Shown: positions 3,187 through 64,000 of the stretch, piece after piece | Layout of the letters: every line of letters begins with the position of its first letter | How positions within the stretch are numbered: position 1 is the first letter of the stretch | DNA from: Cyclobacteriaceae bacterium | GTDB lineage: Bacteria; Bacteroidota; Bacteroidia; Cytophagales; Cyclobacteriaceae | DNA length: 64,000 nt | Assembly (NCBI GenBank): GCA_026129485.1 | Contig: JAHCHY010000006.1 | Span: 152,857-216,856, forward strand | Direction: 5' to 3' | Program-made: the position numbers and the translations under genes | Notes under the pieces: model-generated | Told to the model about the DNA's origin: nothing | Seen by the model: the letters and a program-made list of their open reading frames with translations, nothing else | Databases searched by the model: none

Positions 3187-3191
3187 AAGGT

Positions 3192-3240
3192 TGATCTGCG
3201 ATTAGTGAGTAGTGATTTATGATTTGCGATATATGAGACT
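3192..3240 (+). repeat. Heptad repeat array before DUF1080 gene
   Basis: Seven consecutive 7-bp units of the form (T/C)GAnnnn, for example TGATCTG, CGATTAG, TGATTTA, TGATTTG. All are in one orientation with no inverted half. The array fills the gap between two genes of the same operon and runs into the first codons of the DUF1080 gene. Same period as the arrays at 20.3, 26.8, 28.5, 44.2, 57.2, 58.3, 60.8 and 62.7 kb. Confidence 0.75.
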
Positions 3241-26321: not shown

Positions 26322-29300
26322 ATGAGCGCTGAAACGAAGACTGCCCAAACTCCTCAAGCCAGGTTAGCCGGTCATGCGGCACCACAACCCTATAAGCCCC
26401 AAAACAAAGTACGTATTGTTACCGCTGCCAGCTTGTTTGATGGGCACGATGCAGCCATCAACATCATGCGCAGGATTATCCAGGCAACAGGTGTAGAGGT
26501 AATTCACCTCGGCCACGACCGCAGTGTGGAAGAAGTAGTGAACACTGCCATACAGGAAGATGCGCAGGCCATCGCCATAACAAGCTATCAGGGCGGCCAT
26601 AATGAATACTTTAAATACATGTACGACCTGCTTCAGCAGAAAGAAGCCGGGCACATTAAAATCTTTGGCGGTGGCGGTGGTGTAATCCTCCCGGAAGAAA
26701 TTAAAGAGCTCATGGATTATGGCATCACCAAGATCTATTCGCCCGATGATGGCCGCGCGTTAGGGTTGCAGGGAATGATTAATGACCTGGTAGAAAAGAG
26801 TGATTTTCCAACCGGCCGGACAGTTGACAGTCAACGGTTGACTGTTGACAACCATTTAGAGATAGCACAATTAATATCGGCAGCAGAGAATTATTATGAC
26901 GATCATAAGCAGGTTTTTGATGCCATCAACAAACAGGCAACTCAATCCAAAGCCCCGGTATTGGGTATAACCGGTACGGGCGGTGCGGGAAAATCTTCAA
27001 TGGTGGATGAGCTTGTAAGGCGTTTCCTCATCGACTTCAAAGATCCCGACAATAACGGGACAGGCAAAAATATCGGGATTGTTTCAGTCGATCCGTCCAA
27101 ACGCAAAACAGGCGGTGCGTTGCTGGGCGACCGCATCCGCATGAATGCGATCAACAACAAACGCGTGTACATGCGTTCGCTGGCCACGCGGCAAAGCAAC
27201 CTCGCACTTTCGGCTTATGTAAAAGAAGCCATCAATATATTGAAGGCTGCGGGGTTCGATCTTATCATTTTAGAAACATCAGGCATTGGCCAGAGCGATA
27301 CCGAAATTCTCGACCACAGCGATGTATCGCTTTATGTGATGACACCCGAATACGGTGCCGCTACCCAGCTCGAAAAAATCGACATGCTGGATTTTGCCGA
27401 TGTAATTGCGCTGAACAAGTTTGATAAACGGGGCGGATTAGATGCTTTGCGCGATGTAAAAAAGCAATATCAGCGCAACCATCAGCTGTTCGATCAAAAG
27501 CCCGAAGATATGCCGGTGTTCGGGACTATCGCTTCGCAGTTTAATGATCCGGGCACCAATCGTTTGTATAAGCACATCATTGAAAAAATTGTGTCGAAAA
27601 CCGGGGCAGACCTAACATCATCGTTTGAGATCACACAGGAAATGTCGGAGAAGGTGTTTGTTATCCCTCCGCACCGCACCCGTTACCTCAGCGAAATTTC
27701 AGAAAACAACCGCAGCTATGACGAATGGGTAAATGAGCAAGCCGCTGTTGCCGAAAAGCTGTTCGCCATTTCCAAAACACTTGAATCATTTACCGGTCAG
27801 CCTGATATTAAAAAAGTATTGCAGGCCGAATTCGATCGTATAAAGCTGAATCTCGATCCTAAAAACTGGCGGGTTATTGAAGGCTGGAGCGAGCGCGTAA
27901 AGCAATACAGGGAGCCGGTTTTTAAATTTAAGGTGCGTGATAAGGAAATCGGTATTCAAACCCACAGCGAGTCGCTGTCGCATTTGCAAATACCGAAAGT
28001 AGCGTTGCCAAAATATTCCAACTGGGGCGATTTATTAAAATGGAACTTACAGGAAAACGTTCCGGGTGAGTTTCCCTACACGGCAGGCATTTATCCGTTC
28101 AAGCGTGAAGGCGAAGATCCTACCCGCATGTTTGCCGGGGAAGGCGGCCCCGAACGCACCAACCGAAGGTTTCATTATGTCAGCATTGCCATGCCGGCCA
28201 AGCGTTTGTCCACGGCTTTCGATTCGGTAACCCTGTATGGAAACGATCCGGATTACCGCCCGGATATTTATGGCAAGATAGGCAACTCCGGTGTAAGCAT
28301 CTGTTGTTTGGACGATGCCAAGAAATTATACAGCGGGTTCAACTTAGCCGATCCGAAAACATCGGTGTCCATGACCATCAACGGCCCGGCCCCTATGCTG
28401 CTCGGCTATTTTATGAATGCCGCGATTGACCAGCAGTGTGAGATATACATTAAGAAGAACGGACTTGAAGAAGAAGTTAGAGAAAAGATTAATTCTATTT
28501 ATAAAAATGTCCGGGGTCCACGGTCAACAGTGGACTGTGAACGTCCTTCGTATCAGGGCAGCCTGCCCAAAGGCAATGATGGTTTAGGATTGATGTTGTT
28601 AGGCGTAACTGGCGACCAGGTATTACCCAAAGATGTCTATGAAAAAATCAAGGCCGAAACATTATCGCAGGTGCGCGGCACGGTGCAGGCCGATATTCTG
28701 AAAGAAGACCAGGCACAGAACACCTGCATTTTCTCTACCGAGTTTGCCCTGCGCCTGATGGGCGATGTGCAGCAATATTTTATCGATAAAAACGTACGGA
28801 ATTTTTATTCCGTATCCATTTCGGGATATCATATTGCCGAAGCGGGCGCTAACCCGGTTACACAGTTGGCGTTTACACTGGCCAACGGTTTCACTTACGT
28901 GGAATATTATTTGAGCCGCGGAATGGACATCAACGACTTTGCTCCTAACCTGTCGTTCTTCTTCAGCAACGGCATCGATCCGGAATATTCAGTAATCGGG
29001 CGCGTGGCGCGCAGAATATGGGCCAAGGCCATGAAGAAAAAATATGGCGCCAATGCCCGCAGCCAGATGCTGAAATACCACATTCAAACATCGGGACGTT
29101 CGTTGCACGCGCAGGAAATTGACTTTAACGACATCCGCACCACGTTACAGGCGCTTTACGCGATTTATGACAACTGTAACTCGCTGCACACCAATGCGTA
29201 TGACGAAGCCATTACCACACCCACCGAAGAAAGCGTGCGCAGGGCTATGGCTATTCAGCTGATCATCAACAAAGAATTAGGACTTGCCAAAAACGAAAAC

Positions 29301-29774
29301 CCGTTACAGGGCTCATTCATTATTGAAGAGCTTACCGACCTGGTGGAAGAAGCGGTGTTAGCCGAGTTCGACCGCATTACCGAACGTGGTGGCGTGCTGG
29401 GTGCGATGGAAACCATGTACCAGCGCGGAAAAATACAGGAAGAGAGCTTGTATTACGAAACCCTGAAACATACCGGTGAATACCCGATCATTGGTGTGAA
29501 TACTTTTTTAAGCTCAAAAGGTTCGCCCACCATCATTCCGCAGGAAGTAATTCGTGCTACTACCGAAGAAAAAGAATACCAGATTACCATGCTGAAAGAC
29601 CTGCATGCCACACAAGGGAAAAAAGCAACGGCTATGCTGGAACGTGTGAAGCACGCAGCCATTCAAAACAAAAACATCTTTGAAGAGCTGATGGAAGCCT
29701 GTAAAGTGTGCTCGCTGGGCGAGATCACCAAAGCCCTGTTTGAGGTAGGCGGACAGTACCGGAGGAACATGTAG
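26322..29774 (+). CDS. icmF: Fused isobutyryl-CoA mutase with GTPase chaperone (IcmF)
   Basis: 1150 residues, the full IcmF layout. The cobalamin domain (~30-165) has the base-off motif D40-G-H42 and the G-G-G-G-G-V loop. A MeaB/ArgK-like P-loop GTPase (~205-420) has G-T-G-G-A-G-K-S-S and N-K-F-D. The adenosylcobalamin TIM-barrel mutase follows (~570-1130). At the position matching Arg207 of methylmalonyl-CoA mutase the sequence is Gln799 (L-K-E-D-Q-A-Q-N-T), the isobutyryl-type residue. The residue aligned by eye to Tyr89 is Tyr591 (A-G-I-Y-P-F-K) where I expect Phe in isobutyryl-type enzymes. Interconverts isobutyryl- and butyryl-CoA-type esters; the GTPase loads and protects B12. Two heptad arrays add short loops near residues 168-176 and 732-741. 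Confidence 0.92.
26823..26849. repeat. Heptad repeat array inside icmF (first)
   Basis: Four 6-bp words separated by single bases: GTTGAC, GTCAAC, GTTGAC, GTTGAC at 26823, 26830, 26837 and 26844. The second is the reverse complement of the others, so the period is 7. In frame, it encodes about [10 protein letters not shown] between the B12 and GTPase domains. Confidence 0.8.
28516..28543. repeat. Heptad repeat array inside icmF (second)
   Basis: Words GTCCAC, GTCAAC, GTGGAC and GTGAAC at 28516, 28523, 28530 and 28537, each followed by one base. First and third are reverse complements. Same period and word family as the array at 26823. Encodes [10 protein letters not shown] in a linker of the mutase domain. 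Confidence 0.75.
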
Positions 29775-44218: not shown

Positions 44219-44281
44219 AATTAAAGAAATAACAGTCAGTCAATGCTTTGATCTTGAATTTTGAATCTTGAATTTTGAACA
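44192..44281. repeat. Heptad repeat arrays, inverted pair, in the divergent rlmI-like/trmH gap
   Basis: Left half-array 44192-44226 has units such as ATTCAAG, ATTTCGG, ATTCAAA; right half-array 44247-44281 has TTTGATC, TTGAATT, TTGAATC, TTGAATT, TTGAACA. The halves are in opposite orientation (ATTCAA versus TTGAAT) around a 20-nt centre, so they can form a hairpin. The right half ends 2 nt before the ATG at 44283; the left half covers the first codons of the leftward gene. Confidence 0.8.
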
Positions 44282-44282
44282 C

Positions 44283-45083
44283 ATGCACTTCCTTATCACC
44301 AGCACCCAGAACCCGAAAATCAAAAGCCTGCTTGCATTAGAAAAACCGCGCGAGCGCAGAAAGCAGCAGCTCTTTATTGTAGAAGGCGCTAAAGAAGTGC
44401 GCATGGCTATGGAAGTCGGTTATCGTATCGGTAATATCTTTTTCTGCGAAGAAATCTTAGACAAAAAAGAATCGGGCGATTTACTGCGGCAAGACAAATT
44501 GCTGATTCCCGTATCCAAAGAAGTATTTGATAAAATCGCTATCCGCGAAAGCACGGGCGGCATTCTGGCTGTGGCCGAACAAAAGACACACCGGTTGCAG
44601 GATATTAAGCTAAGCTCAAATCCGTTGCTCTTGATCCTGGAAGCGGTAGAAAAGCCCGGCAACCTGGGGGCCATATTACGTACAGCCGATGCTGCCGGAG
44701 TGGATGCCGTAATTACCTGCGATCCGCAGACTGATTTCTATAATCCCAACGTAATCCGCAGCAGCGTGGGTTGTGTGTTTACCAAGCAAATTGCTTCCGC
44801 CACCAGCGAAGAAACCATAAGCTGGCTGAAAAAGAACAACATTCCTATCTATTGCACTTACCTGAAAGCTTCAAAGCCGTATCATCAAACAGACTTTACC
44901 CAACCGGCTGCCATCGTGATGGGCACCGAATCCACCGGGCTTTCTGATCTGTGGATTGAGAGCAGCACAGCCAATATTATTATCCCCATGCAGGGCAAAA
45001 TCGATTCGATGAACGTTTCCAACGCGGCTGCCGTAGTGGTTTTTGAGGCCAGAAGGCAACGCGGGTTTACCCACCTTGCCTGA
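44283..45083 (+). CDS. SpoU/TrmH-family RNA 2'-O-methyltransferase
   Basis: 266 residues from ATG 44283; an upstream in-frame start at 44268 would lie in the heptad array. N-terminal RNA-binding segment (L-I-T-S-T-Q-N-P-K-I-K-S-L, R-x-R-R-K-Q-Q-L-F-I-V-E-G) is that of TsnR/RlmB-like enzymes. The SPOUT knot motifs are E-K-P-G-N-L-G-A-I-L-R-T-A-D-A-A-G, V-M-G-T-E-S-T-G-L-S and I-P-M-Q-G-K-I-D-S-M-N-V-S-N-A-A-A. Methylates a ribose 2'-OH in tRNA or rRNA; site unknown. Confidence 0.92.
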   Translation: MHFLITSTQNPKIKSLLALEKPRERRKQQLFIVEGAKEVRMAMEVGYRIGNIFFCEEILDKKESGDLLRQDKLLIPVSKEVFDKIAIRESTGGILAVAEQKTHRLQDIKLSSNPLLLILEAVEKPGNLGAILRTADAAGVDAVITCDPQTDFYNPNVIRSSVGCVFTKQIASATSEETISWLKKNNIPIYCTYLKASKPYHQTDFTQPAAIVMGTESTGLSDLWIESSTANIIIPMQGKIDSMNVSNAAAVVVFEARRQRGFTHLA

Positions 45084-55986: not shown

Positions 55987-56020
55987 CTCCCCTCTCCTCC
56001 GGAGAGAGGCCGGGGGTGAG
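55987..56020 (+). repeat. G/C-rich repeat directly before argG
   Basis: CTCCCCTCTCC, a short centre CTCCGG, then GAGAGAGGCCGGGGGTGAG; the first and third parts pair into a hairpin. It ends 3 nt before the argG ATG, so it must influence translation start. The same sequence with four substitutions lies inside argF' at 60336-60369. Confidence 0.8.
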
Positions 56021-56023
56021 GTC

Positions 56024-57226: not shown

Positions 57227-57236
57227 CTAAGTGGTA

Positions 57237-57292
57237 AGTTGAAAGTTAAAGTGAACACTGTGTTACTTTCAACTTAAAACTTTAAACTCTCA
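57237..57292. repeat. Heptad repeat arrays, inverted pair, between argG and argC
   Basis: Units from 57237 are AGTTGAA, AGTTAAA, GTGAACA, CTGTGTT, ACTTTCA and so on to 57292, all in step 7. TAAGTTGAAAGT (57235-57246) and ACTTTCAACTTA (57265-57276) are exact reverse complements, so the array folds back. It fills the argG-argC gap and stops 4 nt before the argC ATG. Confidence 0.85.
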
Positions 57293-57296
57293 AAGA

Positions 57297-58268
57297 ATGA
57301 AGATAAAAGCAGGAATTATTGGCGGAGCAGGCTACACGGGTGGCGAAACATTGCGGTTATTGTTAAATCACCCGCAGGTAGAAGTTGCATTTGTGCAAAG
57401 TCGCAGCCAGGCCGGTAAACCGGCAACTACAACGCACCACGATCTTATTGGTGAAACGGATCTGATCTACTCAGCCGATTTTAACCAACCGGTTGATGTA
57501 TTGTTCCTTTGCCTCAGCCATGGCGAAAGTAAAAAGCTGCTGAGCGAACATAGCTTTGCTGCCAACACTCGCATCATTGACTTAGGTAATGATTTTCGTA
57601 TGGGTGATAAGGCCGGTGAGCGTAAGTTTGTGTATGGCTTGCCCGAATTTCAACGCGATAAAATCAAGCAAGCTAAAAACATTGCCAACCCGGGTTGTTT
57701 TGCTACTACTATTCAGTTGGGGTTGCTGCCACTGGCACAAGCCGGACTATTGACCGAAGTGCACACCACCGGCATAACAGGCTCAACCGGTGCCGGGCAA
57801 AAATTGCAGGACACCACGCACTTTACATGGAGAGCGAACAATATTTCGGCTTATAAAACGCTTACTCACCAGCATCTAAGCGAAATCAACCAGACATTGA
57901 AAGAGTTGCAACTTGCATTCGGTGGCGAAGTAAACTTTGTTCCCTGGCGGGGCGATTTTACAAGGGGCATCTTTGTAACCTCGGTTGTAACCTCTGCGCT
58001 TTCGCTGGATGAGTTAACAAAGCTTTACAAGGATTATTACGCTTCGCATCCGTTCACGCATGTAAGCGATGAGCCCGTCAATCTTAAACAGGTAGTGAAC
58101 ACCAACAAGTGTTTAATCCATTTGGAAAAGATAGGGAACAAATTAGCCGTTCACTCCATTACCGATAACTTATTGAAAGGAGCCAGCGGCCAGGCCATAC
58201 AGAATATGAACCTGATGTTGGGGTTTGATGAGATCGAAGGACTTAGATTAAAAGGAAGTGTGTTTTGA
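57297..58268 (+). CDS. argC: N-acetyl- (or N-succinyl-) gamma-glutamyl-phosphate reductase
   Basis: 323 residues; type-2-like ArgC. NADP site I-I-G-G-A-G-Y-T-G-G-E near the N-terminus, L-S-H-G-E-S, the Asp-Leu-Gly-Asn-Asp-Phe block, and the catalytic Cys134 in N-P-G-C-F-A-T; His in H-T-T-G-I-T-G-S-T-G-A-G. Reduces the acylated glutamyl phosphate to the semialdehyde. Which acyl group it uses cannot be told from ArgC alone. Confidence 0.94.
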   Translation: MKIKAGIIGGAGYTGGETLRLLLNHPQVEVAFVQSRSQAGKPATTTHHDLIGETDLIYSADFNQPVDVLFLCLSHGESKKLLSEHSFAANTRIIDLGNDFRMGDKAGERKFVYGLPEFQRDKIKQAKNIANPGCFATTIQLGLLPLAQAGLLTEVHTTGITGSTGAGQKLQDTTHFTWRANNISAYKTLTHQHLSEINQTLKELQLAFGGEVNFVPWRGDFTRGIFVTSVVTSALSLDELTKLYKDYYASHPFTHVSDEPVNLKQVVNTNKCLIHLEKIGNKLAVHSITDNLLKGASGQAIQNMNLMLGFDEIEGLRLKGSVF

Positions 58269-58274
58269 GTATTA

Positions 58275-58302
58275 AGTTATTAGTTAATAGTTGAAAGTCT
58301 AA
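58275..58302 (+). repeat. Heptad half-array upstream of the four-helix-bundle gene
   Basis: Four units AGTTATT, AGTTAAT, AGTTGAA, AGTCTAA in step 7 (58275, 58282, 58289, 58296). Opposite in orientation to the half-array at 58675-58709 on the other side of the gene. Confidence 0.8.
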
Positions 58303-58313
58303 GTCGAGTAATA

Positions 58314-58667
58314 ATGCAAAATTTCAGAGATTTAATTGTTTGGCAAAAAGCACATCAAAATGTGTTATCCATTTACAACTATACTAAATCTTTTCCAAAA
58401 GAAGAGCAATATGGTATCACCAGTCAATTAAGACGTGCAGCCACTTCTATCCCTACTAATATTGCCGAAGGTACAGGTAAGTTAACTAAAAAAGATTTTG
58501 CCAATTATCTGCAAACTGCTTTAGGCTCTTCTCAAGAGGTTGAATACCTGTTGCTCCTTAGCTGGGAGCTTAATTTTCTAAACGACAAAACATATCAAGA
58601 ACTGAATAATGTAAATAATGAGATCAAAGCAATGTTAATTTCACTTATAAAGAAAGTACGATCATAA
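58314..58667 (+). CDS. Four-helix-bundle protein (23S rRNA intervening-sequence/S23 type)
   Basis: 117 residues, family TIGR02436/PF05635. Marks: F-R-D-L-I-V-W-Q-K-A-H, Y-T-K-S-F-P-K-E-E-Q-Y-G-I-T-S-Q-L-R-R-A-A-T-S-I-P-T-N-I-A-E-G and L-Q-T-A-L-G-S-S-Q-E-V-E-Y. Proteins of this fold occur in rRNA intervening sequences and as accessory proteins (Avd) of diversity-generating retroelements; their role is unresolved. Here it splits argC from argD, has no link to arginine, and is flanked by inverted heptad half-arrays, so it looks inserted. A/T-richer than its arg neighbours. Confidence 0.93.
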   Translation: MQNFRDLIVWQKAHQNVLSIYNYTKSFPKEEQYGITSQLRRAATSIPTNIAEGTGKLTKKDFANYLQTALGSSQEVEYLLLLSWELNFLNDKTYQELNNVNNEIKAMLISLIKKVRS

Positions 58668-58674
58668 TGCTCTG

Positions 58675-58709
58675 CTTTAAACTTACAACTTTAAACTCTT
58701 AACTTTAAA
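58675..58709 (-). repeat. Heptad half-array downstream of the four-helix-bundle gene
   Basis: Five units CTTTAAA, CTTACAA, CTTTAAA, CTCTTAA, CTTTAAA in step 7 from 58675. Inverted relative to the AGTTnnn units at 58275-58302. Ends 2 nt before the GTG start of argD. Confidence 0.85.
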
Positions 58710-58711
58710 AA

Positions 58712-59848
58712 GTGAAACTATTTGACGTATATTCCCTCTTCCCCATCGAACCCGTAAAAGCCTCCGGCTCGTGGCTGTGGGACAGTGAAGGAAAAAAATA
58801 TTTAGACCTGTATGGAGGGCATGCCGTTATCGCTATCGGGCATAACCATCCGCACTTTGTAGAAGCATTAAAGAATCAGCTTGACAAAATCAGCTTCTAC
58901 TCCAACAGTGTTAAAAATTCCATGCAGGAAAAATTAGCTGAAAAATTAGGGCAGCTATCCGGCTACAACAGCTACCAGCTTTTTTTATGTAACTCCGGTG
59001 CGGAGGCCAACGAGAATGCCCTGAAGTTAGCTTCGTTTGTTACCGGCCGAAAAAAGATCATCGCTTTCAAAAAAGCTTTTCATGGTCGTACCTCCGGTGC
59101 AGTGGCTGCTACCGACAATCCTAAAATTGTAGCTCCGTTTAATACCGGGCATGAGATTGTGTTCCTGCCCTTAAATGATGTTGCTGCTTTCGATCAGGCA
59201 ATCGACAACACCATTGCCGCAGTAATCATTGAAGGCATTCAGGGCGTGGGCGGTATCCAGATTCCTGATGCATCGTTCCTGAAACACATCGCACAGAAAA
59301 CCAAACAAGCCGGGGCGTTATTGATCCTGGATGAAGTACAATCCGGCTACGGTCGCACCGGTAAATTTTTTGCACATCAGCATGCAGGTATTGAAGCTGA
59401 CTTAATTACGCTTGCCAAAGGTATGGGCAACGGTTTCCCGATCGGGGGAGTCCTGATTCACCCGGATATAAAACCGTGGAGCGGCATGTTGGGCACCACG
59501 TTTGGCGGTAACTATTTAGCCTGCGCTGCCGGTCTTGCTGTATTAGAAGTGATCGAATCGGAGAATCTTTTAAGTAACGCGGCCGCTATTGGAAACTATT
59601 GGATGAATCAACTTACCGCCTACCCTTCTATTCTCGAAGTGCGCGGGCAGGGCCTGATGATCGGGTTTGATCTTCCTGAATCGCTGGCTGGCTTGCGCAA
59701 AGACCTACTTTTTAAGCATCATATTTTTACCGGTGAGGCAAAGCCCAACACCGTGCGGTTGTTGCCTTCATTGGCCATAACAAAAGCTGAGGCTGATTTA
59801 TTATTGGAGGCATTGGCCACAGAACTAAAACAGGCTGCCGTACTATGA
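58712..59848 (+). CDS. argD: Acylornithine aminotransferase
   Basis: 378 residues from a GTG start at 58712 (the array leaves no ATG). Class III PLP aminotransferase: L-D-L-Y-G-G-H-A-V at the start, N-S-G-A-E-A-N-E-N-A-L-K-L-A, F-H-G-R-T, I-L-D-E-V-Q-S-G-Y-G-R-T-G, the Schiff-base Lys236 in L-A-K-G-M-G-N-G, and T-T-F-G-G-N-Y-L-A-C-A-A. Converts the acylated glutamate semialdehyde to acylornithine. Its stop overlaps the argF' start (ATGA). Confidence 0.93.
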   Translation: MKLFDVYSLFPIEPVKASGSWLWDSEGKKYLDLYGGHAVIAIGHNHPHFVEALKNQLDKISFYSNSVKNSMQEKLAEKLGQLSGYNSYQLFLCNSGAEANENALKLASFVTGRKKIIAFKKAFHGRTSGAVAATDNPKIVAPFNTGHEIVFLPLNDVAAFDQAIDNTIAAVIIEGIQGVGGIQIPDASFLKHIAQKTKQAGALLILDEVQSGYGRTGKFFAHQHAGIEADLITLAKGMGNGFPIGGVLIHPDIKPWSGMLGTTFGGNYLACAAGLAVLEVIESENLLSNAAAIGNYWMNQLTAYPSILEVRGQGLMIGFDLPESLAGLRKDLLFKHHIFTGEAKPNTVRLLPSLAITKAEADLLLEALATELKQAAVL

Positions 59849-60834
59849 GAAATTTTTTATCTGTCCACGAAGTCGAAAATCTTTCGCAACTCATAAACAA
59901 CGCGCTGGCTTACAAAGCCGACCCGTTTAAAGATGTTACGCTGGGCGAACGCAAGCGGCTGGGCATGTTGTTCCTCAATCCCAGCATGCGCACGCGCATC
60001 AGCACACAGATTGCTGCCAAAAACTTAGGCATGGATGCGATTGTGTTTAATGTGGGGCAGGATGGCTGGACGCTCGAATTTGAAGATGAAGCCATTATGA
60101 GCGGCACCACGGTAGAGCACGTAAAGGAAGCCGCACCGGTATTGGGTAAGTATTTTGACATTCTTGGAGTTCGTACGTTTCCGTCCTTGAAAAATAAAGA
60201 AGACGATTACAGCGAGCTCTATATCAACCAGTTTATTAAATATGCCGGTGTGCCGATTTTAAGCCTGGAGAGCGCTACGCTTCATCCGCTGCAAAGCCTT
60301 ACCGATTTAATTACCATTTCAGAAACATGGAATTACTCCCCTCTCCCCCGGAGAGGGGCTGGGGGTGAGCGCAAGCCTAAGATTGTGCTCACGTGGGCAC
60401 CGCATGTAAAAGCGTTACCGCAATGTGTAGCCAACAGCTTTGCACAATGGGTTAATGCATGGGAGCAGGCCGATTTTGTAATCACCCATCCGGAAGATTA
60501 TGAACTGGATGAGAAATTCACCCGTGGCGCAACCATTACCCACAACCAGGACGAAGCGCTGAAAGATGCAGACTTTGTGTATATTAAAAACTGGAGTACC
60601 TATAATGACTACGGCAAAATTTATTGTAACGATCCGGAGTGGATGCTCACCAATGAAAAGCTGGCGTTGACAAACCATGCCAGGATTATGCACTGTTTGC
60701 CCGTTCGCAGAAATGTGGAGCTGAGTGATGAAATTCTGGATGGCCCGAACAGCATAGTTACACAACAGGCCGGCAACCGGGTGTGGGCTGCACAGGCGGT
60801 GTTGGCGGAGTTACTTAAAACCAAAAAGCAGTAG
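59845..60834 (+). CDS. argF': N-succinyl/N-acetyl-L-ornithine transcarbamylase
   Basis: 329 residues of the acylornithine transcarbamylase group. Carbamoyl-phosphate motif P-S-M-R-T-R (46-51), then the loop S-G-T-T-V90-E-H-V-K-E-A, L-H-P-L-Q-S-L-T-D, T-W-A-P-H and M-H-C-L-P-V-R-R-N. Residue 90 is Pro in the Bacteroides succinylornithine enzyme and Glu at the matching place in Xanthomonas acetylornithine enzyme; here it is Val, which removes the Glu that limits the pocket to acetyl. This favours N-succinylornithine as substrate. Residues ~165-175 (S-P-L-P-R-R-G-A-G-G-E) are encoded by a dispersed G/C-rich repeat inserted in frame before strand P-K-I-V-L-T-W. Confidence 0.93.
   Translation: MRNFLSVHEVENLSQLINNALAYKADPFKDVTLGERKRLGMLFLNPSMRTRISTQIAAKNLGMDAIVFNVGQDGWTLEFEDEAIMSGTTVEHVKEAAPVLGKYFDILGVRTFPSLKNKEDDYSELYINQFIKYAGVPILSLESATLHPLQSLTDLITISETWNYSPLPRRGAGGERKPKIVLTWAPHVKALPQCVANSFAQWVNAWEQADFVITHPEDYELDEKFTRGATITHNQDEALKDADFVYIKNWSTYNDYGKIYCNDPEWMLTNEKLALTNHARIMHCLPVRRNVELSDEILDGPNSIVTQQAGNRVWAAQAVLAELLKTKKQ
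60336..60369 (+). repeat. G/C-rich repeat inserted in frame in argF'
   Basis: Same element as 55987-56020, with CTCCCCTCTCC and, after CCCCGG, GAGAGGGGCTGGGGGTGAG. It codes for about eleven residues, S-P-L-P-R-R-G-A-G-G-E, absent from the Bacteroides enzyme as I recall it. The frame is intact on both sides. Confidence 0.8.
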
Positions 60835-60883
60835 GCAATCCTCAATAGGCAAGGTTGCCTGTTGCTTTTGCCTATTGCCTACT
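60830..60883. repeat. Heptad repeat arrays, inverted pair, between argF' and argB
   Basis: Units GTAGGCA, ATCCTCA, ATAGGCA, AGGTTGC, CTGTTGC, TTTTGCC, TATTGCC from 60831. AGTAGGCAAT (60830-60839) and ATTGCCTACT (60874-60883) are exact reverse complements, and AATAGGCAA/TTGCCTATT pair inside. The first units overlap the argF' stop codon. Confidence 0.85.
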
Positions 60884-60893
60884 TTAAAAAAGT

Positions 60894-62740: not shown

Positions 62741-62745
62741 TAACA

Positions 62746-62822
62746 AGTTTCCGGTTACCGGTTTCCTGTTATATGTTTGAGCAGGATAAACCGGAAACCC
62801 GAAACCAGCAACCGGAAACTAA
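62746..62822. repeat. Heptad repeat arrays, inverted pair, between argE and argH
   Basis: Eleven units in step 7 from 62746: AGTTTCC, GGTTACC, GGTTTCC, TGTTATA, TGTTTGA, GCAGGAT, then AAACCGG, AAACCCG, AAACCAG, CAACCGG, AAACTAA. The left units carry nGTTnnn and the right ones nAACnnn or AAACnnn; AGTTTCCGGTT (62746-62756) and AACCGGAAACT (62810-62820) are exact reverse complements. The array ends 2 nt before the argH ATG. Confidence 0.85.
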
Positions 62823-62824
62823 TT

Positions 62825-64000
62825 ATGAAACTCTGGAGCAAAAACAAAGAATCGCTTAAAACGGTAACCGACTTTACCACCGGGCAGGACAATGTGTTGG
62901 ATTTGTATCTTGCACCTTTTGATATATTAGGCTCTCTGGCTCACATCACCATGCTGGAAGCTATCGGGCTGCTTACCAAAAACGAGCTTGAAATTTTAAG
63001 CAAAGAGCTTAAGTCCATTTATAAAGAAATTCAATCCGGCAAGTTTGAGATTGAAGCCGGAGTGGAAGATATACACTCACAGATAGAGCTTCTGCTTACA
63101 AAAAAGCTGGGCGATGTCGGAAAAAAAATACACAGTGGCCGCTCACGCAACGACCAGGTGCTGGTGGATATTAAACTTTACCTGCGCCATGAAACAGAGC
63201 AGCTCACGCAAGCCGTTCAACAGGTTTTTGAGCTGCTGATCGCACAAAGCGAAAAACATAAGCGCAAACTCCTTCCGGGTTACACGCATTTACAGGTAGC
63301 CATGCCCTCATCATTCGGGTTGTGGTTTGGCGCTTATGCGGAAAGCTTAGTTGATGACCTGATCACTTTGGAAGCTGCCTACCAGGTTGTGAACAAAAAT
63401 CCGTTGGGCTCTGCAGCAGGCTATGGCTCATCGTTTCCGCTGAATCGCTCGCTCACCACGCAACTTTTGGGTTTCGATGATCTGAACTACAACGTGGTGT
63501 ATGCACAAATGGGGCGCGGAAAAACAGAGCGCATTATGGCACAAGCCATGAGCAACATAGCCGCTACAATCGGCAAGCTCGCTATGGACTGTACGTTATT
63601 CCTCAACCAGAATTTTGGATTTATATCCTTTCCCGATGAGCTGACCACCGGTTCCAGCATTATGCCGCACAAGAAAAACCCCGATGTATTCGAGCTGATA
63701 CGGGCGAGGTGTAACAGCATTCAGGCTTTGCCGAATGAGTTAACACTACTAACATCCAATCTTCCCTCCGGCTACCACCGCGATTTACAGCTATTAAAGG
63801 AGAAGCTTTTCCCTGCCATTCAAACCCTGAAAGACTGCCTGCGGATGACACACCTCATGCTATCGGCCATTGAAGTAAGGGACAACATCCTGCAGGACGA
63901 AAAATACAAGTACCTGTTCAGCGTGGAAGAAGTGAATAAATTAGTCTTATCGGGTATGCCCTTCCGCGATGCCTACAAAAAAACAGGGCTTGATATTGAA
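62825..64000 (+). CDS. argH: Argininosuccinate lyase (3' end outside the window)
   Basis: The first 392 codons of a fumarase/aspartase-superfamily lyase; the frame is open to the window end. Marks: M-K-L-W-S-K at the start, I-H-S-G-R-S-R-N-D-Q-V, the H-L-Q loop in G-Y-T-H-L-Q-V-A-M-P, and the superfamily signature G-S-S-I-M-P-H-K-K-N-P-D near residue 278. Converts argininosuccinate to arginine and fumarate. Last visible gene of the arginine operon; with usual length 440-460 about 50-70 residues are missing. Confidence 0.94.
   Translation, partial: MKLWSKNKESLKTVTDFTTGQDNVLDLYLAPFDILGSLAHITMLEAIGLLTKNELEILSKELKSIYKEIQSGKFEIEAGVEDIHSQIELLLTKKLGDVGKKIHSGRSRNDQVLVDIKLYLRHETEQLTQAVQQVFELLIAQSEKHKRKLLPGYTHLQVAMPSSFGLWFGAYAESLVDDLITLEAAYQVVNKNPLGSAAGYGSSFPLNRSLTTQLLGFDDLNYNVVYAQMGRGKTERIMAQAMSNIAATIGKLAMDCTLFLNQNFGFISFPDELTTGSSIMPHKKNPDVFELIRARCNSIQALPNELTLLTSNLPSGYHRDLQLLKEKLFPAIQTLKDCLRMTHLMLSAIEVRDNILQDEKYKYLFSVEEVNKLVLSGMPFRDAYKKTGLDIE

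Follow-up and report, generated by a model that had tools for sequence, protein, structure and literature searches.

Introduction

Why should a small gene stand between argC and argD of a bacterial arginine operon, enclosed by two arrays of seven-nucleotide units that are inverted with respect to each other? The question is raised by a stretch of 64,000 nucleotides (hereafter the window) from the genome of a Cyclobacteriaceae bacterium (G000; 40 contigs, 4.08 Mb, 98% complete). The gene belongs to the four-helix-bundle family PF05635 (23S-rRNA-IVP/S23p), here called IVP, for which we know of no catalytic site. The names of all other genes (arg, fad, mur etc.) are presumptive, being assigned by reading and recall. 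The analysis described below indicates that the IVP gene and its two inverted heptad arrays probably constitute one mobile element, similar to the intervening sequences (IVSs) of rRNA genes, with a ring-forming protein that recognises the element's own heptads. PF05635 genes of several phyla, in unrelated operons, show this architecture again, and what the sequence-only reading had noticed at a single locus is more general than its author thought.

The Unit between argC and argD

A single unit occupies positions 58269-58711 of the window, between argC (57297-58268) and argD (58712-59848), and consists of an intact IVP gene between two inverted step-7 arrays. The left arm (58269..58313, plus strand), as read from the sequence, reaches from the argC stop to the IVP start and is an AGTTnnn heptad array of four in-step units, with AGTT/AGTC starts at 58275, 58282, 58289 and 58296, and a fifth (an extra AGTC at 58302) that is one base off the step. 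The gene itself (58314..58667, plus strand) encodes 117 aa and matches PF05635 (133.5 bits, cut-off 33.8, E 4e-39) and TIGR02436 (128.5 bits, cut-off 24, E 1e-37). The right arm (58675..58709, minus strand) is inverted against the left one, ends at the argD start and has five units of the types CTTTAAA, CTTACAA and CTCTTAA in exact step 7 (starts at 58675, 58682, 58689, 58696 and 58703). The AGTTnnn units (58275-58302) and the inverted CTTTAAA-type units (58675-58709) first reported around this gene are seen where they had been placed. In the predicted RNA fold of the unit, the arms pair through an imperfect stem and leave the ORF in a closed loop (z -1.99; 3 of 100 shuffles as good). The window copy thus shares with rRNA IVSs, in this predicted fold, complementary ends which close a loop holding an IVP ORF, but it is located in argC-argD, outside any 23S rRNA gene.

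The sequence-only reading had also related the protein to Avd, the accessory protein of diversity-generating retroelements (DGRs). The kinship holds as a shared fold and family and goes no further: the Avd equivalog matches the window IVP with only 28.1 bits against a cut-off of 80, so an identity as DGR Avd was rejected. The likeness of PF05635 and Avd is weak here (22-28-bit matches), and the part of PMC10053308 consulted likewise states that the two resemble each other.

Filled and Empty Gaps in Relatives

At argC-argD, gene and arms are present in G000 and its congener G017, whereas the gap is 4 nt in G024, the nearest other genus sampled (ArgC 71% identical; 3 nt before argG and -11 at argG-argC), and 23-60 nt without a gene in G044, G015 and G033. 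These comparisons support the proposal that the gene is a mobile cassette interrupting argC-argD. By eye, G005 has a decayed IVP tail in this gap and G139, from another family, has an IVP unit there with a different heptad. Furthermore, G017 contains gene-less fold-backs in the gap before argG (144 nt) and in argG-argC (81 nt), and its argF-argB gap is 16 nt versus a 59-nt fold-back in G000.

The mur cluster was compared in 17 genomes of the genus, G000 included. At murE-mraY, an IVP gene is found in four of the 17 (G000, G358, where it is truncated, G363 and G360) and an internally deleted remnant in G368; two others have gene-less fold-backs of 113 and 131 nt, two have gaps of 19-20 nt, in one of which (G362) a scar of the CAATTnn heptad can be recognised by eye, and eight have gaps of -1 to 3 nt. 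At mraY-murD the IVP gene is present in G000 only, and 12 of the 17 show a 4-nt overlap (ATGA in 11), including G362 and G361, whose MraY proteins are 93% and 92% identical. The remaining genomes have a 5-nt overlap, a 9-nt gap, a one-sided array and an mraY frameshift (unread), one each; in L234 (G366), mraY is frameshifted near its end, perhaps through an assembly error.

Presence and absence at one and the same site in close relatives, as characterizes mobile elements, is thus found at argC-argD, mraY-murD and murE-mraY, and the IVP unit in argC-argD is an insertion. A target-site duplication is not evident: by eye, it would measure at most about 2 nt at mraY-murD. The eight argC-argD IVPs found in the genus form one clade (99/96); because same-site copies within the genus are often a single, vertically inherited clade, movement is rare.

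Other Copies in the Genome

G000 has eight PF05635 matches over the Pfam cut-off and one below it. The eight copies lie in operon gaps: three in the fad operon and one each in murE-mraY, mraY-murD, lon-clpX, before dxr and in argC-argD. By eye, each of the eight is enclosed by two inverted step-7 arrays that share one unit, the arrays of L006 and L007 being the weakest. The units are TTAGTnn, TTAGACn, AGTTnnn, GTTGnnn, GTTACCA, CAATTnn, ATTTnCG and GATTnnn. The formal flank score is stricter: both arrays pass in L001, L002, L003 and L005, the left one only in L004 and L007, and neither in L006, L008 having been outside this scoring as it was missed by the profile used. In L004 and L007 the IVP reading frame continues through the right arm, so that the repeats encode the C-terminus, and the flank score is blind to these right arms for this reason.

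Flanks of PF05635 Genes in General

The IVP family has members in 52 of the 60 genomes taken from the window's bacterial family, and PF05635 is matched in 232 of 296 genomes of the phylum (over the cut-off in 220), with up to 15 matches per genome. The profile was run on loci L001-L038 and L089-L197 and gave 165 ORFs, and removal of duplicates and short flanks left 153; as these loci are the best-scoring hits, the sample is biased. It covers Bacteroidota and at least seven other phyla, assigned per record title. Flank self-similarity on the left and right is 39.9/37.9% at lag 7, 36.9/34.2% at lag 14, 34.8/33.6% at lag 21 and 31.1/29.4% at lag 28, with little left at lag 35, while other lags give about 26-30% and the gene bodies 28.1% at lag 7. 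With the 95% point of the scores at ten other lags as threshold, an array is present on the left in 111 of the 153 loci, on the right in 108, on both sides in 86 and on either side in 133, which leaves 20 loci arrayless by formal score; at the strict 99% point the figures are 37, 49, 22 and 64, respectively. Arrays have a median length of 36 nt on either side (about five units; range 2-14 units) and lie at a median of 15 nt before the IVP start. The repeat strand is poor in C (11% and 10% C, 23% G).

The array period is 7, rarely 8: both sides score in 68 of the 153 loci at lag 7, in eight at lag 8, in one at lag 5 and in none at lags 6, 9, 10, 11 and 13. A minority with 8-nt units was noted in L222 and L231 (murE-mraY), L225 (mraY-murD) and L347, with the units AATTTGAA by eye and GGAGGGCA by score. 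The left flank matches the reverse-complemented right flank with a score of at least 14 in 89 of the 153 loci, compared with 19 of 153 when the right flank is read forward and 34 of 612 when right flanks of other loci are used in the inverted comparison. In addition, the heptad profiles agree better within a locus (0.63, 86 two-array loci) than between loci with proteins less than 65% identical (0.46-0.54). Neither the seven nor the inversion is absolute, considering the eight loci with 8-nt units and the direct arrays of a Pseudanabaena plasmid (L342, see below).

The pattern extends to 16 loci outside the main Bacteroidota classes, including Alpha-, Beta- and Deltaproteobacteria (Geobacter, Desulfosoma, Desulfosarcina), Acidobacteria, Planctomycetes, Fibrobacter, Opitutae, Clostridia and two Ignavibacteria, although some of these phyla may be misassigned since the records are mostly metagenome bins: lag-7 similarity is 40.5%, and both sides pass in 10 of 16 and neither in three. 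Control flanks behave differently. Those of argC in 28 relatives give 26.6% at lag 7 and pass on both sides in one of 28, the set including the element-bearing G017, and those of Y1_Tnp genes (20 loci) give 25.9% and pass on both sides in none. Seven of these 20 nevertheless reach an inverted score of at least 14, so an inverted match alone is unremarkable; the Y1_Tnp flanks contain ordinary hairpins without heptads. Inverted step-7 flanks are thus far commoner around other IVP copies than around control genes, as the sequence-only reading would have it.

The IVP gene is mostly co-directional with its surroundings. Where the flanks were long enough (139 loci), the two neighbours share its direction in 114 cases; the upstream neighbour has the same direction in 123, the opposite in 11 and is lacking in five, and the downstream neighbour has the same direction in 121, the opposite in nine and is lacking in nine.

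Gene-Less Fold-Backs and Isolated Arrays

Inverted pairs had been reported from other arg gaps too, and they are present with slightly different extents. The argG-argC gap (57227..57296) has a gene-less heptad fold-back of the AAAGTTn flavour, as in the IVP element, the argF-argB gap (60830..60888) one of the AATAGGC flavour and the argE-argH gap (62741..62825) one of the GTTnCCG flavour; the three are predicted to form hairpins (z -2.43, -1.76 and -5.11, respectively). After argE, this GTTnCCG fold-back of G000 has its counterpart in a same-flavour IVP element in G017, whose IVP is 75% identical to that of L005, a copy of similar flavour at another place in G000. Since different genes follow downstream, the two argE sites have no more than their left junction in common. 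Such fold-backs in the arg gaps next to the IVP unit resemble solo or non-autonomous copies, and some gene-less fold-backs may be derived.

Isolated heptad arrays also occur in the window, namely a GATTnnn type in a short intergenic gap (3190..3239) and an intergenic TTGAATn type (44239..44286). Altogether, the window has 11 lag-7 stretches with at least 18 of 28 matches; since the control lags 4, 5, 8, 10, 11, 13, 16 and 17 give 0-1 stretches each (the harmonic lag 14 gives four), the lag-7 arrays are beyond chance. Two of the 11 stretches (26815-26853 and 28507-28544), both with inverted parts, fall within a single long ORF (26322-29774) and give the impression of heptad fold-backs that entered it in frame. 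Another palindromic repeat (CTCCCCTCTCC..GGAGAG.GGC.GGGGGTGAG) is found at about 55987-56022 before argG and at 60336-60369 in frame within argF, where it corresponds to the peptide SPLPRRGAGGE, a coding insert of a REP-like element.

In a sampled 264 kb of G000, gene-less array sites outnumber gene-bearing ones by about 10:1, some of them perhaps by chance. Random stretches give lag-7 counts of six in 200 kb of G000 and seven in 100 kb of G017, which is somewhat raised, while in other genera the lag-7 counts are near those of other lags, whether IVPs are present in the genome or not. When gene-less arrays from seven genomes were ranked by flavour against the IVP arms of these genomes, the own genome came first, ties included, for eight of 18 arrays (a nineteenth was dropped as an IVP flank), the arm sets of the genomes differing in size. 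It is only suggestive, then, that gene-less arrays carry the flavour of their own genome's IVPs.

Coupling of Heptad and Protein Lineage

Arms were compared among 79 elements from the genomes of 29 relatives and G017, a set into which only some of the genus matches were taken; sites were regarded as the same when the downstream genes shared peptides. At the same site, the inverted arm score is 12.03 for proteins at least 55% identical (80 pairs) and 7.00 for those below 45% (33 pairs). At different sites it is 9.25 for proteins at least 55% identical (51 pairs), 8.01 at 45-55% (216 pairs) and 7.37 below 45% or with no alignment (2673 pairs). The low score of unrelated proteins at the same site means that the heptad changes when a different IVP lineage takes over a gap. 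Moreover, an arm scores higher against its cognate partner than against arms of other copies at its site (43 elements, seven sites; permutation p 0.0002), with little or no cognate excess at two of the seven (14.6 versus 14.8 at site 3 and 9.75 versus 9.25 at site 5). Across 86 loci, protein identity and heptad similarity are weakly correlated (r 0.20, p 0.0005), relatedness being incompletely removed.

Read by eye at argC-argD, both arms of G361 consist of AAAGCnn units and both arms of G354 of an AGTTnTG-type repeat; G000, G366 and, for the most part, G017 have AAAGTTn, and G364 and G371 combine AAAGTTn with AAAGCnn. Left and right arms thus change in concert. Which heptad an element carries goes with the lineage of its IVP and not with its location, so that an array linked to the protein is a better account than a cassette whose cargo is there by chance. 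Of the earlier idea that the heptad fold-back is the inserting unit and the protein its cargo or helper, the first part holds, but the protein is probably more than chance cargo. The IVP protein is under purifying selection: among 10 same-site pairs with dN<0.6 and dS<2, dN/dS has a median of 0.10 and a maximum of 0.32, values that are rough because dS exceeds 1 in seven of the 10.

Copies in rRNA and on Plasmids, and Candidate Partners

Seven of the 40 plasmid records with a PF05635 match were read (five cyanobacteria, Azospirillum and Gemmatirosa), and six of the seven have step-7 arrays on at least one side, Gemmatirosa having octads. On a large plasmid of Azospirillum, the copy is situated within a 23S rRNA gene (LSU_rRNA_bacteria, 2529 bits); its insert starts with CAGAGGA CGGATGA CAGAGGA CGGAGGA and ends with a matching inverted array, and its formal left score is low because the left array continues into the ORF start. 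A script scan of loci L001-L272 for 23S rRNA motifs gave no locus with two or more. The cyanobacterial plasmid IVPs are flanked by heptanucleotide arrays, e.g., GGGAGTA. On a Pseudanabaena plasmid (L342, cas6-cas4), the heptad arrays are very long, AAAAGCT on the left and AAAAGCC on the right, and direct, not inverted. On a Nostoc edaphicum plasmid (L343), the IVP gene and GGGAGTA arrays stand between the genes of the ribonucleotide reductase beta and alpha subunits, in the opposite direction.

A resident reverse transcriptase or Y1 transposase was also considered as partner and rejected for want of a match in G000: RVT_1 gave 0 matches at E<=0.001 in this 98% complete assembly, and Y1_Tnp gave 0 matches. 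RVT_1 likewise had no match (E<=0.001) in 13 of 18 IVP-bearing genomes of the genus, some of which are incomplete drafts. As for the protein itself, the PDB relatives 2gsc and 2rld have five chains each. In the portion of PMC4990558 consulted, a Xanthomonas relative is cited as a homopentameric ring, the function of the S23p/IVP family is given as not known, and the Coxiella IVS is described as having a 28-bp terminal stem and GACAGAT heptamers repeated in tandem ahead of the S23p ORF.

Explanations of the Architecture

On the reading of the unit as a mobile IVS-like element, the host operon would supply transcription of the mostly co-directional IVP gene, and pairing of the arms would leave the ORF looped out. 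One solved relative of IVP is a pentameric ring, and the protein may bind the single-stranded heptads of its own element, perhaps with one heptad per protomer, as the median array of about five units would allow; this five-unit idea is soft in view of the wide range of array lengths. Such binding could shield or direct the folded-back nucleic acid and promote its spread to other gaps, and it is as such a helper of movement that we infer the protein to act. The element would survive in a gap because neither neighbour loses its stop or start. In the self-complementary arms, slippage and template switching from one to the other may keep the heptads alike, and copies which lose the gene would persist as solo fold-backs or scars. 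As the heptads differ between loci, the elements lack the common end sequence that transposons usually have.

Polymerase slippage might also act alone, building up 7-nt repeats in gaps where an IVP gene merely happens to sit. Heptanucleotide repeats are described, in the parts of the sources available, as the most abundant long simple repeats in most genomes, and slippage has been proposed for them (PMC4679880 on Mrazek 2007; PMC4692102); gene-less arrays do exist. However, the signal is absent from the argC and Y1_Tnp control flanks, random stretches of other genera are near background, and slippage can neither yield the same heptad inverted across a gene nor tie the heptad to a protein lineage, so that this explanation is strained and has very little probability. 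The element might instead be a property of the host that is no longer mobile, IVP being a TRAP-like RNA-binding autoregulator of the operon and the arrays its sites. Purifying selection, long vertical inheritance at one site, arrays near start codons, co-direction and the five-chain relatives would all suit such a resident regulator. It is an unlikely explanation all the same, because the element is found in operons of unrelated kinds (arg, fad, mur, lon-clpX, dxr), copies are missing from very close relatives, decayed and scarred copies occur, one site can hold unrelated IVP lineages with unrelated heptads, and one copy is inside 23S rRNA.

Two further explanations leave the element mobile and assign the movement to another enzyme. 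A reverse transcriptase acting in trans could copy the excised fold-back RNA, with IVP as an Avd-like accessory, in agreement with the PF05635-Avd resemblance described above, with the co-directional insertion and with rRNA as a target; yet G000 has no RVT_1 match despite its eight elements, of which one is missing from relatives whose MraY is 92-93% identical, nor is there a match in most of the IVP-bearing genomes examined in the genus, incomplete drafts among them, and we regard such retro-mobility as quite unlikely. Alternatively, a RAYT/Y1-like or other DNA transposition system could move the fold-backs with the IVP gene as passenger. The REP/RAYT system is a precedent for this, and the excess of gene-less over gene-bearing sites in G000 fits it, but Y1_Tnp is unmatched in G000, the flanks of Y1_Tnp genes have no heptads, and a passenger lineage should neither dictate the repeat sequence nor stay under purifying selection; passenger status is accordingly highly improbable.

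Relationship to Known Systems

The excision of rRNA IVSs by RNase III has been reported. The elements described here resemble the 23S rRNA IVSs of Coxiella, Leptospira and others in the protein family, the ORF in a loop and the complementary ends, and differ from them in their location in protein-coding operons, where each lineage has its own heptad. The heptamers of the Coxiella IVS, as far as that source was seen, are in line with the heptad-ended build of IVP elements, and the IVSs of rRNA genes appear to be particular instances of a broader kind of IVP element with heptad ends. With REP/REPIN sequences and their RAYT (Y1_Tnp) genes, the elements share short gap fold-backs, a small gene and, in the sample, commoner gene-less copies, but their ends differ per lineage and G000 has no Y1_Tnp match. 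The DGR accessory protein Avd is a related four-helix-bundle protein, as partly seen in the source cited above; unlike it, the window IVP is below the equivalog cut-off, and it occurs in a genome with no RVT_1 match.

The cyanobacterial STRR sequences are heptanucleotide repeats. Repeats of this kind, with 7-nt units and mostly intergenic location as in the present elements, are described in Xanthomonas (GGGAATC), Nostoc (GGGGA(C/T)T) and Beggiatoaceae (TAACTGA) in the available parts of PMC4679880 and PMC4692102. These parts draw no link to an IVP gene: "four helix" is mentioned in neither paper, "23S" not in PMC4679880 and "S23" not in PMC4692102. Except for the Coxiella IVS heptamers, no published link between PF05635 and heptads was found in the literature covered, beyond which most subscription journals lie.

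Significance

The unit in argC-argD is probably an IVS-like element, with a fair chance of being a class of its own. Carried further, and with more doubt than confidence, PF05635 might represent a widespread mobile class lacking its own nuclease, transposase and reverse transcriptase, in which the ring reads a private heptad, present in inverted arrays at the two ends, and moves fold-backs between operon gaps and rRNA loops, with lock-and-key co-divergence; IVSs, part of the cyanobacterial and xanthomonad repeats and many of the hairpins in operon gaps of Bacteroidota would then be its products. Heptanucleotide repeats and rRNA IVSs have already been published separately, and joining them via PF05635 is new as far as the literature found goes. 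The private inverted heptad arrays provide a candidate ligand for a common protein family of no known function, and the heptad-ended IVP element offers a common origin for rRNA IVSs and the separately described heptanucleotide repeats. IVP elements are, in addition, a source of new hairpins between the genes of basic operons such as arg, fad and mur. If IVP does recognise the heptads, they would constitute a mobile system without any known recombination enzyme.
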